A stretch of DNA of 64,000 bases from Collimonas silvisoli (GTDB taxonomy: Bacteria; Pseudomonadota; Gammaproteobacteria; Burkholderiales; Burkholderiaceae_D). How positions within the stretch are numbered: the first letter of the stretch is position 1; every line of letters begins with the position of its first letter. A program made the translations under genes and the position numbers. The DNA is taken from positions 1 to 64,000 of the forward strand of contig NZ_JAGQEG010000002.1 in assembly GCF_018305005.1 (NCBI RefSeq), in the 5' to 3' direction. Under the pieces are notes generated by a model, which saw only the letters and a list, made by a program, of their open reading frames with translations, searched no databases and was not told the DNA's origin. Positions 2,061 through 9,628 of the stretch are shown piece after piece.

Positions 2061-4430
2061 ATGACGCCCCCAGACACAGCCAGCGACACCCAGCCCTCTC
2101 TTCCTTCGCGCCGTCGCATGCCGCTGTTGCTGCGGCTGGCGCTTGGCTTTTTTGGCATTGTTATCGGCCTGACAGTTATCGGCTGCCTGACTTTTTTCCT
2201 GATGCTGGCGATGGCTTACCCGAATTTGCCGGAACTGGATTCGCTGACCGACTACAAACCCACAATTCCGTTGCGCATTTTTTCGGCCGACGGCGTGCTG
2301 ATCGGCGAGTTTGGCGAAGAACGGCGCAGCCTGGTGCACATCAGCGAGATTCCCGACGTGATGAAGAAAGCTGTGCTGGCAATTGAAGACGATCGTTTTT
2401 ACCAGCATGGCGGAGTCGACTACCAAGGCATCCTGCGCGCCAGTTTTTCCAACCTGACCGGCGGCGGCGGCGGCGCCAGCACGATTACGCAGCAGGTCGC
2501 CCGCAATTTTTTCCTGACCAGCAACGAGCCGACCTTCTTCCAGAAAGCCTCGCGCAAATTTCTGTATGAGATTCCCTTGGCATGGAAAATCGAACGCAAC
2601 CTGAGCAAGGACCAGATTCTTGAGGTTTACATGAACCAGATTTATCTGGGCCAGCGTGCCTACGGCTTTGCCTCGGCGGCGCAAATCTATTTTGGCAAGC
2701 GGCTGCAGGACATTACCACCGCAGAAGCCGCGATGCTGGCCGGTTTGCCGAAAGCGCCGTCGGCCAACAATCCGGTGGTCAATCCGAAGCGTGCAACGGT
2801 ACGCCAGCAATATATTTTGCTGCGCATGCTGCAACTCGGCTACATCAACGAAGCGCAGTACGAACAAGCCAAGAACGAAACCCTGCACATCAAGACCGGC
2901 GCCAGCGAATTTGGCATCCATGCCGAATTCGTCTCTGAAATGGCGCGCCAGCTGGTGTATGAGCAGTTCAAGGAAAACACTTACACGCGCGGCCTCAATG
3001 TCTTCACCACCATTACCAAGGCGGACCAGGATGCGGCGTATATAGCGCTGCGCCGCGGCGTCATGGATTACGAGAAGCGGCGCGGCTATCGCGGCCCCGA
3101 AGGTTTTATGGAGATCCCTGACGGCACCAAGGAAGAGGCTGAAGATGCGATCGAAGTAGAACTGGCCGACCATCCCGACAGCGATGAAATCGTCGCGGCG
3201 GTGGTGCTGGAGGCAAGCCCGAAACTGGTTCGCGCCGTACTATCGTCGGGCCAGGAGATCAGCGTCAGCGGCGCCGGCCTGAGCATCGCCACCAATCTGC
3301 TGAGCGACAAAGCGCCGCCGCAGCGCAAGGTCAAACGCGGCGCCATCATCCGCGTCATGCTGGATGGAAAAAACTGGAGCATCACGCAAATGCCTGCGGT
3401 GGAATCGGCTTTTGTCGCGGCCGACACCCAGGACGGAGCGATCCGCGCCCTGATCGGCGGCTTTGATTTCAATCGCAATAAATTCAATCATGTGACCCAG
3501 GCGTGGCGCCAGCCGGGTTCGTCGTTCAAGCCCTTCATTTATTCCGCCTCGCTGGAAAAAGGCTTGTCGCCGGCCACGATCATCAACGATGCGCCGCTTA
3601 CTTACGGCGGCGGCCAGACCGGCGGCCAGATCTGGCAACCCAAGAACTACGGCAATAAATACGAAGGGCCGATGAGCATGCGCCGTGCGCTCACCAAGTC
3701 GAAGAACGTGGTCTCGGTACGTATCCTGGACAAGATCGGTGCCAAATACGGGCAGGAATATGTGACGCGTTTTGGCTTCGATGCTGACAAAAATCCGCCA
3801 TACCTGACGTTGGCCCTGGGCGCCGGCGCAGTGACGCCGCTGCAAATGGTCGGCGGTTACGCGGTATTTGCCAACGGCGGTTATAAAATCAGCCCTTACA
3901 TCATCAGTAAAATCACCGACGCCGACGGCAACGTGTTGTCGCAAGTGCATCCGGAAACCGCCGGCGACGAAACCAATCGCATCATCGATCCGCGCAATGC
4001 CTACTTAATGGATAGCATGATGCGCGACGTGGTGCGCTACGGCACCGCAGTCAAGGCGCTGTCGCTCAACCGCACGGATCTGGCCGGCAAGACCGGCACC
4101 ACCAACGATTCGCTGGACGCCTGGTTTGCCGGCTACCAGCCGTCGCTGGTAGCCGTCGGCTGGATGGGCTACGACCAGCCGCGCAGCCTGGGCGACAAGG
4201 AAACCGGCGGCGGCCTGGCGTTGCCGATCTGGATCAGCTTCATGCAACAGGCGTTGAAAGGCGTGCCGATGGAAGACCGCACGGTGCCGGACGGCCTGGT
4301 TCATTCCGGCGGTGAATATTATTACGCGGAATATCCGCCGGGAATCGCAACACAAAGCCTTGGCGGTGGCAGCACGGCGCCGACGGAAGAAGAAAAAGCC
4401 CGGGATGAGGTGAAGAACGAATTGTTCTGA
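2061..4430 (+). CDS. mrcA: Penicillin-binding protein 1A (bifunctional transglycosylase/transpeptidase)
   Basis: Class A PBP (789 aa) that polymerises and cross-links peptidoglycan from lipid II on the outer face of the inner membrane. There is one N-terminal membrane anchor (about residues 23-50). The GT51 domain shows EDDRFYQHGG (about 108) and GASTITQQVARN; an OB-like insert follows. The transpeptidase domain shows the SxxK serine in GSSFKP (about 485), an SKN motif and KTGTTN (about 676). Its position next to divergent pilM is the common proteobacterial arrangement. No strong Shine-Dalgarno precedes the ATG. Confidence 0.97.
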   Translation: MTPPDTASDTQPSLPSRRRMPLLLRLALGFFGIVIGLTVIGCLTFFLMLAMAYPNLPELDSLTDYKPTIPLRIFSADGVLIGEFGEERRSLVHISEIPDVMKKAVLAIEDDRFYQHGGVDYQGILRASFSNLTGGGGGASTITQQVARNFFLTSNEPTFFQKASRKFLYEIPLAWKIERNLSKDQILEVYMNQIYLGQRAYGFASAAQIYFGKRLQDITTAEAAMLAGLPKAPSANNPVVNPKRATVRQQYILLRMLQLGYINEAQYEQAKNETLHIKTGASEFGIHAEFVSEMARQLVYEQFKENTYTRGLNVFTTITKADQDAAYIALRRGVMDYEKRRGYRGPEGFMEIPDGTKEEAEDAIEVELADHPDSDEIVAAVVLEASPKLVRAVLSSGQEISVSGAGLSIATNLLSDKAPPQRKVKRGAIIRVMLDGKNWSITQMPAVESAFVAADTQDGAIRALIGGFDFNRNKFNHVTQAWRQPGSSFKPFIYSASLEKGLSPATIINDAPLTYGGGQTGGQIWQPKNYGNKYEGPMSMRRALTKSKNVVSVRILDKIGAKYGQEYVTRFGFDADKNPPYLTLALGAGAVTPLQMVGGYAVFANGGYKISPYIISKITDADGNVLSQVHPETAGDETNRIIDPRNAYLMDSMMRDVVRYGTAVKALSLNRTDLAGKTGTTNDSLDAWFAGYQPSLVAVGWMGYDQPRSLGDKETGGGLALPIWISFMQQALKGVPMEDRTVPDGLVHSGGEYYYAEYPPGIATQSLGGGSTAPTEEEKARDEVKNELF

Positions 4431-4456: not shown

Positions 4457-4495
4457 CAAAAAGGCTTCCCTGATAGATACAGGGAAGCCTTTTTT
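4457..4495. terminator. Bidirectional Rho-independent terminator
   Basis: A near-perfect hairpin with arms AAAGGCTTCCCTG and CAGGGAAGCCTTT and loop ATAGATA, flanked by an A-run on one side and a T-run on the other, so it can stop transcription from mrcA and from the leftward DUF2827-like operon. The stop codon of the last operon gene sits in its right flank. Confidence 0.85.
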
Positions 4496-5630
4496 AATTC
4501 GAATACAGATCCAGCAAGCGCCGGGTGTAGATCTCGATATTCTCCGGCAAGCTCACATCCAGCGTACGCAGCAAGGTCTGCGCATTGCGCCGGTAATCCT
4601 CCAACTGCGCATCATGCGTGGCAAACGCCTGTAACACCGCCTGGCCGCCGGCATAGGAATCGAACTCCGGATAGTAATACCCGTAACCCTTGATAAATTC
4701 CGAGTTGTGGATCAAGGGATAAGCGCCGTACAAGGCCTCGTAGTACAGATAGTTCTGGCCGTTTTCCCAGTGATGCGAAATGATGCAATCGCCATAATTG
4801 GCCATGAACTCGTACACCGCAAAGCGCCCTTCAAAAGACGCCAGGCCGTGATTCACGACATCAAGCGAACGCGCGAATTGCGAAAACTTCAAATGCTCTT
4901 TCAGATGCAAGGTATTGCACACGCGCAGATGTTGCAGGAATGCCGGTTGCGCGCGATATGCTTCTTCGCAAGCCAGCATCGGCAGCAGTGAGGTTTTCAC
5001 CATGCAGACATTGGGTTCGAAACTGCATACCCGCCAGCGCGGTTTGCCCGGCTCATAACCATAGCTGAGATGGCTGGGCAAGGTGGCGATGCCTTTTGCA
5101 AAAAACAGCGGCGTCCACAAATGCGGCACGATATGCACCGGCGCCCGTGCAGTGAGGCCAAAGTAATCTTTGCAGCTGCGCAGGTACTCCGGCAGGGTCC
5201 ACACCGCGTCGTAAGGCTTGTCGCTGCATAAACCGCCGTGCGGTTTGTTGAACATGGCGCGCTCGATGTCGATCACATAATCGTTGCCGACCCGCATCCA
5301 GGCATAACGCCCGCCGCGCTCGCGGAATCTCCTGACCCAATCTTCGTTCAGCTGGGCGCTCATTTCAATCACCACATCCAGGGTTTCCATGGCCTGATCC
5401 AGGCCGATCATATCGATCCCCAGATCGCCCAGCATCATGGCGTCATTGACCTGGTTGGTCTGGCCGTCCAGCACCAGCACGGCACGCTCGACCGCCGGCG
5501 ACTGGTTGAACAATTGCACCAGGAATGCGCAATTCTGGAAGATGCCGTTTTCCCAGATAGATTGCGGCCCCGGCCGCACATACAGGGTTACGCCGACGCG
5601 CAATTTACGTTGTGGCAAAGGGTGGCTCAT
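4494..5630 (-). CDS. DUF2827-like protein, paralogue 3 of 3 (possible glycosyltransferase fold)
   Basis: 378 aa, soluble, no signal peptide. Clearly paralogous to the next two genes upstream: shared SIWENGIFQN near the N-terminus, LDVVIEM at about 85, VPHLWTPLFF at about 170, FEPN...VK at about 205, and SHHWE-x3-NYLYYEALYGAYPLIHN at about 285. These match what I remember as DUF2827, which is of unknown function. The Rossmann-like beginnings of both halves and the E/H-rich C-terminal motif suggest a GT-B glycosyltransferase, but that is inference. The start overlaps the previous stop as ATGA, so it is translationally coupled. Confidence 0.75.
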   Translation of the reverse strand: MSHPLPQRKLRVGVTLYVRPGPQSIWENGIFQNCAFLVQLFNQSPAVERAVLVLDGQTNQVNDAMMLGDLGIDMIGLDQAMETLDVVIEMSAQLNEDWVRRFRERGGRYAWMRVGNDYVIDIERAMFNKPHGGLCSDKPYDAVWTLPEYLRSCKDYFGLTARAPVHIVPHLWTPLFFAKGIATLPSHLSYGYEPGKPRWRVCSFEPNVCMVKTSLLPMLACEEAYRAQPAFLQHLRVCNTLHLKEHLKFSQFARSLDVVNHGLASFEGRFAVYEFMANYGDCIISHHWENGQNYLYYEALYGAYPLIHNSEFIKGYGYYYPEFDSYAGGQAVLQAFATHDAQLEDYRRNAQTLLRTLDVSLPENIEIYTRRLLDLYSN

Positions 5631-6772
5631 ACCTGCCCCCCCACGGTGTGTTGAAGTCTTTTCACGAATGCATCCACATTGTCAGGGTGTGCCGGATCTA
5701 GCCTGCGCAAGTACGCGGCGCCCGCCTTTTTATAGTCGTCCCAGAATTCCGGCTCCTGGCGCCAGGCGTCGAGCAAGGCGTGGCCGCCGGCGCTGGCCTC
5801 AAAATCAGGATAATAAATACCGACGCCGCCAGCCTTCAGATATTCCGAATTGTGGATCAGCGGATAACCGCCGTAGAGCGCGTCGTAGTACAGATAATTC
5901 AAACCGCATTCCCACTGATGCGAAACCACCGCATCCATCTTTTGCTGCGCCATGCATTCGACAAACGCTACCCGCGGTTCATAAGTGGCCTTGTGATGTT
6001 GCGTCAGATCGAGATTGATGGCGAAACGATTGAAGGTTGGATGCTCTTTCATCTGCACCGTATTCATCACCATCATCGTGCTCACCGAGCGCTGATCTAG
6101 GCGATATGCCTGCTCGCATACCAGCATCGGAATAAAGCAGCTTTTGACGACAGATATATTCGGTTCGAAAATCGCCGTGCGCCAGCCCGGCCGATCGGCG
6201 CCGCTGCTGGCTTGATAGCCGAAATGGTGACCGTCTTTTTCAACCCGCTCGACCTGCCCTTGGATAAACAGCGGCGACCAGATGTGCGGCACCGCAAACA
6301 CCGGCACCCGCGACACGGTGCGCAACAACGGTCCGCTGCTTTTCATGTGATGCGGCAGCGTCCATATTTCATGCCACGGCGTGCCATTGAAAATCTGGCC
6401 GCTAGGGCCGTCGAACATCGGCGCTTCGGCGTTGTCGGCATAAGTGTGGCCGACAAAGAAGGTAATGATCTTGACGCCCAAAGCGCGTACATGACGCAAC
6501 CATTCCAGCGGCAATTGCGCTCCCATTTCGATCACTATATCAAGCTCGAAAGTGACGTCGTCAGGTTTCACCAGAGGCACATCAAGATCGTCCAGTCCCA
6601 TTGCTTCGGGCATATGATCAAGGTCGCCGCCGTTCAATAGAAATACGCGGCCGACTTGCGGGCTGTGCCGCAACAGCATTACCAGAAATGCCAGATTCTG
6701 ATTGAGGCCGTTGGACCAAAGCTGCGCGCCGTGCACTGCAAAGACGGAGATACCTACATTGATTTTTTTCAT
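5627..6772 (-). CDS. DUF2827-like protein, paralogue 2 of 3
   Basis: 381 aa, cytoplasmic by sequence. Carries the same signature blocks as its neighbours: QLWSNGLNQNLAF, LDIVIEMGAQL, VPHIWSPLFI, FEPNISVVKS, CEQAYR and ECGLNYLYYDALYGGYPLIHN. It is visibly closer to the third paralogue than to the first. It is the middle gene of a three-gene minus-strand run, with a 28-bp gap upstream and an ATGA overlap downstream. Function unknown; a sugar-transfer role in a surface glycan is only inferred from the fold-like pattern. Confidence 0.75.
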   Translation of the reverse strand: MKKINVGISVFAVHGAQLWSNGLNQNLAFLVMLLRHSPQVGRVFLLNGGDLDHMPEAMGLDDLDVPLVKPDDVTFELDIVIEMGAQLPLEWLRHVRALGVKIITFFVGHTYADNAEAPMFDGPSGQIFNGTPWHEIWTLPHHMKSSGPLLRTVSRVPVFAVPHIWSPLFIQGQVERVEKDGHHFGYQASSGADRPGWRTAIFEPNISVVKSCFIPMLVCEQAYRLDQRSVSTMMVMNTVQMKEHPTFNRFAINLDLTQHHKATYEPRVAFVECMAQQKMDAVVSHQWECGLNYLYYDALYGGYPLIHNSEYLKAGGVGIYYPDFEASAGGHALLDAWRQEPEFWDDYKKAGAAYLRRLDPAHPDNVDAFVKRLQHTVGGQV

Positions 6773-6800
6773 GGGTTAGGAGAGATTAAAAACCATTCGA

Positions 6801-7940
6801 TCATACAATCGGCTGTTGCAGCAAAGCAGTCAATAACCGCTCATACTCAGCCGTGACTTGCGCACAGCCAGGCAGGTAACGGCTCAGCACTTGCCGCTGG
6901 CGCGTCAGATAATCCTGCCAGCTGCCGTCGTGCGTAGTCAGCACTTCAAGCAATCTGCGGCAACCGTCTTGCACATTATTTCCCTCGTAGTAGTAACCAA
7001 GATCGCTGCACATATAGGCGTTATGCACCAACGGATAACCCTGCCAGCAAACGTCGAAATAAAAATAGTTCAACGCATTCTCTATCTGGTGGGAAATCAC
7101 TACATCAGTCATCTGGCTCAGGAACTGCGGCGTGTCGAAACGCCCCAGGAACACCGCCTTGTGCTGACGCACGATATCTAGCTGGTTCATCACCGCAATG
7201 AATTCCTTGCTCTCGCGCGCCAGCCGCTCGGCGTTGGTCACCTGCAGAATCTCGATGTCTTGCGGCCGCTGCCGATAGGCTTCTTCTGCAATGAACGCCG
7301 GGTACATGCAGAATTTCACAATGTCGTTATTCGGCTCCATCACCGTCAGCCGCTTGGGGCCAGGGCGCGGGCGATATTCACCGTGATGCTCGAAACCCTG
7401 GCTGCGCTGATCGACGAAGATCGGATCCCATACAAACGGCACCACCTGCGCCGGCCGGCGACGTAAAGTCTCGAAATAGGACTGGCTGTTGGTAGCAACC
7501 TGGGGCACCATCCAGATCGCATCGTAGCGCTGGTTGACGAACAGATCGTAACCCCACAGCGGCCGATTGAATAATACCGATTGCATCACATGCACATACT
7601 CAAACCCGCAGCAGTAGGATATCAAACGACATCCTTGCGTCTTCAGGTAAGCGGTCTGGTCTGCATTGATCTGACCGCCAAGTTCGATCAGCACATCCAG
7701 GTTGTCCTTGGCTTGCTCGAAGGTCACCGTCGGCCAACGTGTCTGATCCCATGGCAGTGCCGCGGTGATGGCGATTGCGGTGGTATTCACCAGATGCATC
7801 GAACCCACGCTCGGACATTGTTTTAACGTCTCGGCCAGGTACACGGCGTTTTGCTTGATGCCGTTATTCCATAGCGATTCGTTTTCCTGATGCAAACCGA
7901 TGGTGATGCCGATACGCAAAGCGCCGATTGAAGAAGTCAT
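6801..7940 (-). CDS. DUF2827-like protein, paralogue 1 of 3
   Basis: 379 aa, the first and most divergent of the tandem trio. It keeps SLWNNGIKQNAVYLAE, LDVLIELGGQI, VPFVWDPIF, MEPNNDIVKF, EEAYR and IENALNYFYFD-x4-GYPLVHN. No membrane segments or signal peptide. The 54-bp gap upstream contains a short direct repeat (TTCATTTGCGC twice) at the end of the preceding gene and no clear terminator, so it may be read through from that gene. Function unknown. Confidence 0.75.
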   Translation of the reverse strand: MTSSIGALRIGITIGLHQENESLWNNGIKQNAVYLAETLKQCPSVGSMHLVNTTAIAITAALPWDQTRWPTVTFEQAKDNLDVLIELGGQINADQTAYLKTQGCRLISYCCGFEYVHVMQSVLFNRPLWGYDLFVNQRYDAIWMVPQVATNSQSYFETLRRRPAQVVPFVWDPIFVDQRSQGFEHHGEYRPRPGPKRLTVMEPNNDIVKFCMYPAFIAEEAYRQRPQDIEILQVTNAERLARESKEFIAVMNQLDIVRQHKAVFLGRFDTPQFLSQMTDVVISHQIENALNYFYFDVCWQGYPLVHNAYMCSDLGYYYEGNNVQDGCRRLLEVLTTHDGSWQDYLTRQRQVLSRYLPGCAQVTAEYERLLTALLQQPIV

Positions 7941-7994: not shown

Positions 7995-8657
7995 TCATTT
8001 GCGCGCCGGCGCCGCCATTTTTGTCTGCTCGGTCCAGTTGTACTGCACATAGCGCCGGATGATCAGGCAACCCGGCGGTGAATCCACCAGCGAGACCGAG
8101 CCGCCCGGCTCGGCAGGCGATACATATACCGTGAAGGTCGGCAGCAAAGGCGTAGCGCTATATCCTTTCAATTCGGTATCGGCAATGCTCTTGCATGAAT
8201 ACGGTGCGATGGAGATACGCTCGGCGGCAACCGAACACGCGCCGCCATCCTGAGGCACAGCGGTAATGGATACCGCCGCCGAGGCGCCGGCATATTCGAT
8301 CCCTGTGAGCGAAAAGAACGGTCCGCGATCAGGATGGGCGCGATCCCAATCCACCAGCACATCGTGGGCGCCGGTGCCATTGATGGCCAGCGCCGACAAA
8401 CGCGTAATAGCCGGCTGGCACTGCTTGACGCCGACGCCGCGCGCCGCTTCTGCCAGCAGGTTTTTCGGTGCTGCCGCAGCCGCCTTGGCGCCGGGTAAAT
8501 CGGCACGCATCTGGCCATGCGCGGCTGGCGTCAGCCAGAATAAAAGAATCACGCAAAGCAATCCCGGCAGCCATGGTTGCCGGTATGCGCTTGATGCTAG
8601 TAAGCCCTTTGAGTCGCTTGGTTCGGTTGTTGCATAAATATGTGGTGCATGCTTCAT
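7995..8657 (-). CDS. Uncharacterised exported protein
   Basis: 220 aa, not recognised. A hydrophobic stretch LLCVILLFWLTPAAHG (about residues 34-49) preceded by R/K looks like a signal peptide ending AHG-Q, with an unusually long n-region. The mature part has scattered cysteines (QCQP, ACSV, SCKS, GCLI) that could form disulphides, and no repeats. The ATG overlaps the stop of the MORN gene as TGATG, so the two are coupled and probably work together in the envelope. Confidence 0.6.
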   Translation of the reverse strand: MKHAPHIYATTEPSDSKGLLASSAYRQPWLPGLLCVILLFWLTPAAHGQMRADLPGAKAAAAAPKNLLAEAARGVGVKQCQPAITRLSALAINGTGAHDVLVDWDRAHPDRGPFFSLTGIEYAGASAAVSITAVPQDGGACSVAAERISIAPYSCKSIADTELKGYSATPLLPTFTVYVSPAEPGGSVSLVDSPPGCLIIRRYVQYNWTEQTKMAAPARK

Positions 8658-9628
8658 CAGCTAAATCCGTTTTTAGTAAGTAGTGTGCCGAATCCCGCAT
8701 CCGAGGTAACAGGTAGCGCAGCCTCCGGTTCCACAGCAGGCTTGGCGTCAGGGACTGCCGGCTCCAGAACAGGCAATTCAGGTGGCAGTGTGGTTGCCGG
8801 TTTCGGAGCCGGCAACTCCGGTGCTGGCGTTGCAGCTGCTGGGGCGGGCATCGCGGCGGCGGCTTGCTCGCGCTGCGTCAACGCTACCACGGCCTTTTCA
8901 CATTCTTCTTCGCTATCGCACGGAATCACGAAGGTTTTGCCCTCCCACCAGCCGCGCAGCACATAAACGCCGTTCTCGGCCTTCCTGCCTTTGCCTTCGT
9001 TCAGCATCTCTTGATATTGCGGATGGGCAGGGGGAAACGTCATGATCCCATAGCCCAGCTGGCGGCCGCGATGCCACTCGCCGCTATAGGTCGAGCCGTC
9101 GGCAAAGCTGGCCTTGCCCTCGCCTTCCGGCAGGGAGTCGATAAACATGCCGTCAAAGCGATTGCCCGGTTCCTCGACGCCGGTGGTGTGGCCGCGTATT
9201 TTTCCCTGCTCCATGTTGCCGGTCAGTTCTGCTACCTGCTTGTTGTTGCTCAACCAGCGCACCGTTCCCGGGCCTTGCGCCAGATCCTTGTCGCAGCGCC
9301 CGCTCCAACGCACTGTAATGTCATTGGCAATCGGTTCCGGGCTCCAGATCTTACAGCCGTTGCTGGTATCCGCTGCCCAGTGCCTGGGCGCTTCGGTGGC
9401 GCCACCGCTCGTCGGATTGTTCAGGGTAGCCGCGCCGACAACAGCGGGAGTGTTGACGGCCGCTGCCGGTTCGATTGCGGATAGGAATACGCTTGTCAGG
9501 AAAAGGCTCTGTATCAAACTCAGACTCAGACTCAACCTCAAACGAAGTCGATAGCCGATTGCCTCGCCGTTAGCCGAGCCGTCACGCCAATCACTTGTGT
9601 CTTCCGAACCCCTGATTATTATGTTCAT
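8657..9628 (-). CDS. MORN-repeat-containing exported protein
   Basis: 323 aa. The N-terminus carries a strange run of alternating residues (RLRLRL then SLSLSL) leading into a hydrophobic signal segment ending about residue 57 (EPAAAV). The central part has MORN-type repeats, e.g. GPGTVRWLSNN, NRFDGMFIDSLPEGEGKASF and STYSGEWHRGRQLGYGIMTF. The last 80 residues are rich in Ala/Pro/Glu and look disordered. MORN repeats usually mediate membrane or protein contact. The start is uncertain, as no Shine-Dalgarno is visible. Confidence 0.65.
   Translation of the reverse strand: MNIIIRGSEDTSDWRDGSANGEAIGYRLRLRLSLSLSLIQSLFLTSVFLSAIEPAAAVNTPAVVGAATLNNPTSGGATEAPRHWAADTSNGCKIWSPEPIANDITVRWSGRCDKDLAQGPGTVRWLSNNKQVAELTGNMEQGKIRGHTTGVEEPGNRFDGMFIDSLPEGEGKASFADGSTYSGEWHRGRQLGYGIMTFPPAHPQYQEMLNEGKGRKAENGVYVLRGWWEGKTFVIPCDSEEECEKAVVALTQREQAAAAMPAPAAATPAPELPAPKPATTLPPELPVLEPAVPDAKPAVEPEAALPVTSDAGFGTLLTKNGFS

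Follow-up and report, generated by a model that had tools for sequence, protein, structure and literature searches.

DUF2827 proteins as candidate GT-B glycosyltransferases for Ser/Thr-rich trimeric autotransporter adhesins

The DUF2827 trio and its paralogue classes

The first 64,000 nucleotides of contig NZ_JAGQEG010000002.1 (forward strand) from the Collimonas silvisoli assembly GCF_018305005.1, hereafter the window, harbor three consecutive genes for proteins of the Pfam family DUF2827 (PF10933), designated here classes A, B and C (Table 1), for which we propose a role as glycosyltransferases of serine- and threonine-rich surface adhesins. An earlier note based only on this sequence had described them as tandem, minus-strand, DUF2827-like paralogues of nearly equal length, in agreement with our results: a search with the PF10933 model, whose cut-off is 25 bits, matched the three proteins over model positions 1-362, and in the alignment class B is 40% and class C 33% identical to class A. 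Four of the motifs listed in that note are common to the three proteins (W-x-NG-x2-QN, VP-x2-W-x-P-x-F, EPN-x4-K and YPL-x-HN), and a fifth, given as LDV-x-IE, had to be relaxed to LD[VI]-x-IE. Class B ends 4 bases into class A (shared sequence ATGA) and the gap between class C and class B is 28 bases, so that the trio resembles a single transcript. The proteins match no Pfam family besides DUF2827 above its cut-off, and at E≤1 they match neither Glyco_transf_9 in Pfam nor any NCBIfam family. A search of the whole 5.66 Mb genome gave no DUF2827 match beyond the trio, and a phage collection gave none at all. The closest named relatives of the class A gene come from Collimonas (92-96% identity) and Glaciimonas soli (95%).

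To compare the paralogues, the best 80 of 282 DUF2827 loci were kept together with the window, providing 253 members, 246 of them full-length. After reduction at 85% identity, a quick tree of 94 rows, with support by the Shimodaira-Hasegawa-like approximate likelihood ratio test (SH-aLRT) only, displayed a class A clade of 34 rows (SH-aLRT 98), a class C clade of 24 rows on a long stem (SH-aLRT 100) and a further type D with one row (locus L060). Class B is our own grouping of every row outside A, C and D; it consists of two clades, of 18 rows (SH-aLRT 92) and 17 rows (SH-aLRT 100), that are not demonstrated as one group. The three genes of the window fall in three different branches, each spanning several genera, which agrees with the old duplication and specialization suggested in the earlier note. 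Assigned by best match, the full-length members comprise 81 A, 76 B, 63 C and 26 D proteins. Of the 81 A genes, 72 have a full-length B gene immediately upstream, and three of the nine others (in loci L038, L042 and L088) have a partial DUF2827 frame in this upstream place, near a contig end. The DUF2827 genes are thus a specialized set kept together across a wide range.

Table 1. Coordinates of the genes discussed in the text; positions refer to the window unless a locus is given
Feature	Position	Strand	Remarks
DUF2827 class A, predicted GT-B glycosyltransferase, last of the trio	4494-5630	-	378 aa; PF10933, 546.9 bits
DUF2827 class B, middle of the trio	5627-6772	-	381 aa; PF10933, 516.8 bits
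DUF2827 class C, first of the trio	6801-7940	-	379 aa; PF10933, 508 bits
YadA-type trimeric autotransporter adhesin	L115:7179-18236 (genome G000, contig C170)		3685 aa; C-terminal YadA_anchor; near contig end
mrcA (name taken over from the earlier note)	2061-4430	+	789-aa frame; tail to tail with the trio
P220, possible accessory of the locus	7995-8657	-	220 aa; signal-peptide-like start by eye
MORN-repeat protein	8657-9628	-	PF02493 (MORN); upstream of the trio, same orientation

Predicted fold and donor-site-like residues

An AlphaFold2 model of class A, computed with 94 sequences, reached a predicted local distance difference test score (pLDDT) of 95.6 and a predicted template modeling score of 0.92. 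It consists of two Rossmann-like domains that superpose on solved enzymes of the glycosyltransferase B (GT-B) fold. Using Foldseek against the PDB we obtained 122 matches at E≤0.001, with GT-B glycosyltransferases such as BshA on top; the pneumococcal O-GlcNAc transferase GtfA ranks 36th (E 3e-7), and the GtfA/B complex is among the matches too. Structural comparison with VIA gave a Z of 24.9 against BshA (root-mean-square deviation 3.9 for 327 aligned residues), 23.7 against TarM and 20.2 against both SdgB and a bacterial O-GlcNAc transferase. Structure prediction and fold search therefore support the GT-B fold that the earlier note had suspected, and DUF2827 is very likely a family of GT-B enzymes. 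Classes B and C would share the fold by homology to class A. Searching the PDB sequences with the 94-row DUF2827 profile returned two matches, the better one at E 1.5, which we judged to be chance. Since the first strand of the fold starts at residue 10, class A would have no room for a signal peptide.

Enzymes of family GT4 carry an EX7E motif, whose first and second Glu we take to correspond to positions 290 and 298 of DUF2827, respectively. Among 94 diverse members, Lys212 is present in 93 and position 298 is acidic in all 94, being Glu in every class A row, Asp in 34 of the 35 class B rows and either residue in class C. All DUF2827 classes could presumably bind a nucleotide sugar. GtfB is the non-catalytic partner of GtfA, and by analogy the DUF2827 proteins might be adaptors or chaperones of Ser/Thr-rich stalks, with catalysis residing elsewhere. 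The regular placement of B directly upstream of A and the loss of the first EX7E Glu in most members would fit such a role, which we nevertheless consider improbable, given that Lys212 and the acid at position 298 are kept across the classes and that in the window the two remaining genes of the presumed operon match no glycosyltransferase family in Pfam.

Co-occurrence with Ser/Thr-rich YadA-type adhesins

The genome of the window has a single YadA_anchor match (PF03895, E 3e-8, 36.5 bits, cut-off 22.7), located on a separate contig and belonging to the adhesin of Table 1. Serine and threonine make up 53.9% of this protein (1986 residues), which contains 209 SLST motifs. Along its stalk charged residues are very rare and hydrophobic residues recur at 7, 11, 14, 18 and 25, a spacing by which the stalk resembles a coiled coil of heptads and hendecads.

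Two partly overlapping genome samples, one with 145 genomes of the family, the other with 399 genomes of the order, were searched for both DUF2827 and YadA anchors. The anchors were found in 13 genomes of the former and 41 of the latter (52 together), and 144 anchor-bearing frames were examined, 143 of them fetched and one from the genome of the window; residues were counted as Ser/Thr-rich when lying inside 40-residue windows of which Ser and Thr make up half or more. All 13 genomes with full-length DUF2827 have a YadA-anchored frame of 198 or more Ser/Thr-rich residues, and none of the 39 that have YadA anchors and no DUF2827 does (largest value there 65; Fisher p 1.6e-12, assuming independent genomes, which they are not). 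Frames with at least 100 such residues number 32 of the 144, every one in a DUF2827-bearing genome. The positives are spread over 7 genera in 4 families, the negatives over 26 genera, and the one genus that holds genomes of both kinds (g15) follows the rule in each of them. Similarly, at least three SLST motifs occur in 12 of the 13 genomes with DUF2827 and in 0 of the 39 without, the exception being genome G251, where the Ser/Thr-rich stalk is worded differently. This partition of the genomes is the strongest evidence for the adhesin link.

The converse search, using a 144-residue piece of the stalk from the window's own genome against the 399 genomes, gave matches at E<1e-6 in 7 genomes, the query's own included, and these are exactly the 7 of that sample with DUF2827 over the cut-off. 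Weak matches in G166, G380 and G511 (E 1.6e-4 to 3.2e-4, 22-34% identity, two with internal stops) look like chance and were scored as misses. Genome G421, with a DUF2827 match below the cut-off, was scored as lacking the family, and G102, where a 40-residue match of 25.8 bits lies just over it, was scored as holding a fragment and stands outside the 13. In the 399-genome sample first-look candidates were scored up to 15 per genome for YadA and 10 for the stalk, so adhesins may have been missed, and some frames contain X in place of masked bases (G061, G452). The fragment of G102, a 1.7 Mb genome of the same genus as the window's, reads by eye as a remnant of class B wording (locus L011). This genome has no YadA anchor, an apparent joint decay of DUF2827 and adhesin; G083, also of the same genus, has neither DUF2827 nor an SLST adhesin, and both genomes apparently represent cases of co-loss.

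At the level of gene neighborhoods, 58 of 86 DUF2827 loci contain a frame with a YadA anchor and 49 a Ser/Thr-rich one, and the fetched DNA of 62 holds a frame with at least 100 Ser/Thr-rich residues (part checked by eye). In Burkholderia and relatives the DUF2827 genes often lie beside the adhesin, and in seven genomes (G014, G058, G251, G374, G395, G400 and G452) the YadA anchor is within about 2.5 kb of them. Many draft Burkholderia contigs end inside SLST adhesin repeats next to DUF2827 (L045, L047, L049, L050, L060, L062, L071 and others), and draft genomes therefore probably under-annotate this adhesin. For 20 of the 24 loci that lack a Ser/Thr-rich frame (all but L072, L096, L101 and L110), and for L036 in addition, the whole genome was searched. 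Among these 21 genomes, whose loci lack a complete adjoining stalk gene, 18 have YadA anchors, 12 have a stalk with at least 100 Ser/Thr-rich residues and one more has a stalk with 93.

In Collimonas the DUF2827 trio is unlinked to the adhesin and yet co-occurs with it. On the single contig of G028, which has the trio at 0.54 Mb, SLST adhesins lie at 2.6 and 4.37 Mb, and G130 (2 contigs) combines one trio with 12 SLST adhesins scattered over 5.6 Mb. This unlinked co-occurrence in genomes of one genus argues for genes that work together rather than travel together. A shared ride on islands or plasmids, with no joint function, could be read from the Burkholderia plasmids that bear adhesin-linked DUF2827 and are typed as conjugative; besides the megabase distances just described, there are genomes whose YadA-type adhesins lack SLST stalks and that have no DUF2827, even inside a genus (G014 against G054), and we regard this account as very unlikely.

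Gene tables were available for four of six plasmid stretches, and in three of these DUF2827 lies near a YadA-like adhesin gene; in the fourth a 2573-residue hypothetical protein with 15 SLST motifs takes the adhesin's place. These tables also bear on whether the DUF2827 proteins might instead build a surface polysaccharide or lipopolysaccharide, their tie to the adhesin being indirect. The GT-B fold itself and the fact that several of the closest structural matches make glycosides of small molecules, wall teichoic acid or lipopolysaccharide are consistent with such a role. The near neighbors in the four tables are, however, adhesin, OmpA, tetratricopeptide-repeat (TPR) and H-NS proteins, with no polysaccharide cluster, though on one stretch a single sugar-nucleotide-binding protein is found about 10 kb away, and DUF2827 tracks the SLST adhesins both in the partition (13/13 versus 0/39) and in the converse search (the same 7 of 399), which leaves a polysaccharide or lipopolysaccharide role with a small probability.

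Neighboring genes, proposed function and known systems

The earlier note had taken the placement of the trio next to mrcA and envelope genes as a hint of a surface-sugar role. We found mrcA and cyaY beside the trio in five Collimonas loci and two stretches of the same genus only, among 90 stretches searched, and dropped this neighborhood as a functional clue, as it is confined to Collimonas-type records. P220 homologues are present in 18 of the 86 DUF2827 loci and in two of four further stretches. Judged by coordinates, at least 11 of the 18 lie just upstream of class C; five lie directly behind class A with no adjoining C. An alignment of 17 rows has four invariant cysteines. Neither a Pfam search (E≤1) nor a comparison of profiles with DUF2827 gave a match for P220. 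Its model has a pLDDT of 76.8, with residues from about 65 to 211 mostly above 90, and we name no fold for it because the best Foldseek match against the PDB has an E of 0.08. Homologues of the MORN-repeat protein were seen in four Collimonas loci and one stretch of the same genus only, and its membership in the system is doubtful.

Elsewhere, an OmpA-family protein lies near DUF2827 in 33 loci. A cluster of 458-residue proteins occurs in 17 loci, and the one scanned member (L041:11121-12497) matches Glyco_transf_34, so that it may perhaps be a further glycan-building enzyme. In a TPR cluster of 19 loci, a scanned 627-residue member (L095:12893-14776) has a Glyco_transf_9 match below the cut-off, and four other TPR neighbors of DUF2827 that were scanned have none; TPR neighbors were therefore left out as glycosyltransferases. 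N-termini resembling the extended signal peptide region (ESPR), detected with a home-made pattern, occur in 11 of 30 Ser/Thr-rich frames and 18 of 114 others, and were not used as a clue since many frames are truncated by the end of a contig and variants escape the pattern. Separately, two loci of the same genus (L026 and L027, in G143 and G117) have a fourth DUF2827 gene apart from the trio, closest to type D and 63% identical to L060; no SLST motif was found within roughly 1.5 kb on either side of it.

We propose, with a probability of roughly 0.8, that DUF2827 is a family of GT-B glycosyltransferases whose dedicated clients are Ser/Thr-rich trimeric autotransporter adhesins with SLST repeats. 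Behind this proposal stand the following observations: the class A model has the fold, donor-site-like residues are conserved, the paralogue classes are old, and DUF2827 co-occurs tightly with SLST stalks in the genomes sampled. O-glycosylation of the stalk would take place in the cytoplasm, ahead of its export by Sec, with a nucleotide sugar as donor, the O-linkage being suggested by the Ser/Thr-rich nature of the client. A pair formed by the usual neighbors B and A could add the first sugar, and class C, joined in some species by the GT34-like neighbor, may extend or diversify the glycan. A coiled-coil stalk with very few charged residues would gain stiffness and protection from it. That two to four DUF2827 enzymes, each of a fixed class, GT34-like enzymes in some species and P220 constitute an undescribed Gram-negative system, a counterpart of serine-rich-repeat glycosylation, which builds a multi-sugar O-glycan on SLST stalks and in which one unlinked trio serves up to a dozen clients, is a more tentative idea, to which we would give somewhat less than even odds.

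Several points weigh against the proposal. Enzymatic activity, sugar and linkage are all inferred. Position 290, where the first Glu of EX7E is expected, is Asn in 86 of the 94 rows, and with respect to the EX7E criterion of GT4 in CAZy the family thus has an acid at the second position and mostly Asn at the first. Profile alignment (hhalign) of DUF2827 with nine same-genome Glycos_transf_1 proteins was not significant (E 0.096, probability 0.6%), its register being the expected one. The genomes of the partition are not independent, and all 13 positives come from 7 genera in 4 families. Since the query of the converse search is worded like a Collimonas stalk, stalks of other wording may escape it, although those with a detected YadA anchor would still show in the Ser/Thr-window count. 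Five of the 21 followed genomes have no Ser/Thr-rich stalk among the adhesins read (not every one was read), and three metagenome bins among the 21 are without any YadA anchor. In locus L036, from one of these three bins and labelled Verrucomicrobia, the DUF2827 pair adjoins a partly Ser/Thr-rich protein (L036:6380-8476) that looks repeats-in-toxin (RTX)-like rather than YadA-type and supplies the frame by which this locus counts among the 62. We guess that bins with a Verrucomicrobia or Alphaproteobacteria label may have been mis-binned.

SLST repeats have been described in the Burkholderia adhesins BoaA and BoaB (PMC2955633, in the part available), and for BCAM2418 their Ser/Thr enrichment was suggested to relate to putative O-linked glycosylation (PMC7142374, 2020), the available text of which names no enzyme for it; that of PMC3404963 contains no glycosylation term. 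On biotite, the genes that Collimonas pratensis PMB3(1) induces most strongly include those of three autotransporter adhesins (PMC12542777, available part). Literature searches whose coverage excludes most subscription journals found one paper mentioning DUF2827, no paper mentioning PF10933 and nothing relevant on O-glycosylation of serine-rich coiled coils. DUF2827 is a concrete candidate enzyme for the suggested O-glycosylation of SLST repeats in adhesins of Burkholderia pathogens. If correct, our proposal would give a function to a Pfam family without one and indicate how Ser/Thr-rich coiled-coil stalks of thousands of residues stay soluble and stable.

The GtfA/GtfB systems of Gram-positive bacteria operate with an accessory Sec system on a serine-rich, wall-anchored adhesin. 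DUF2827 resembles them in the GT-B fold, in a long Ser/Thr-rich surface adhesin as proposed client and in the presence of two partner genes, and differs in being Gram-negative, in having as proposed client a YadA-type trimeric coiled coil with SLST repeats and in that both B and A keep donor-site-like residues. HMW1C/NGT enzymes are cytoplasmic N-glycosyltransferases that modify the adhesin before its export, a route that DUF2827 would share, whereas DUF2827 matches no other Pfam family above cut-off and would have a Ser/Thr-rich client. SdgB modifies the Ser-Asp repeats of adhesins; this staphylococcal GT-B enzyme and TarM share the fold of DUF2827 (VIA Z 20.2 and 23.7) and differ from it by their clients and by a sequence identity of 10% in the structural alignment. 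TibC-type heptosyltransferases are dedicated enzymes for autotransporter adhesins of Gram-negative bacteria (PMC4358343, in the text available). Although DUF2827 is without a Glyco_transf_9 match, and TibC-type clients are TibA and AIDA-I rather than trimeric coiled coils, both families would have in common a dedication to autotransporter adhesins in Gram-negative bacteria.

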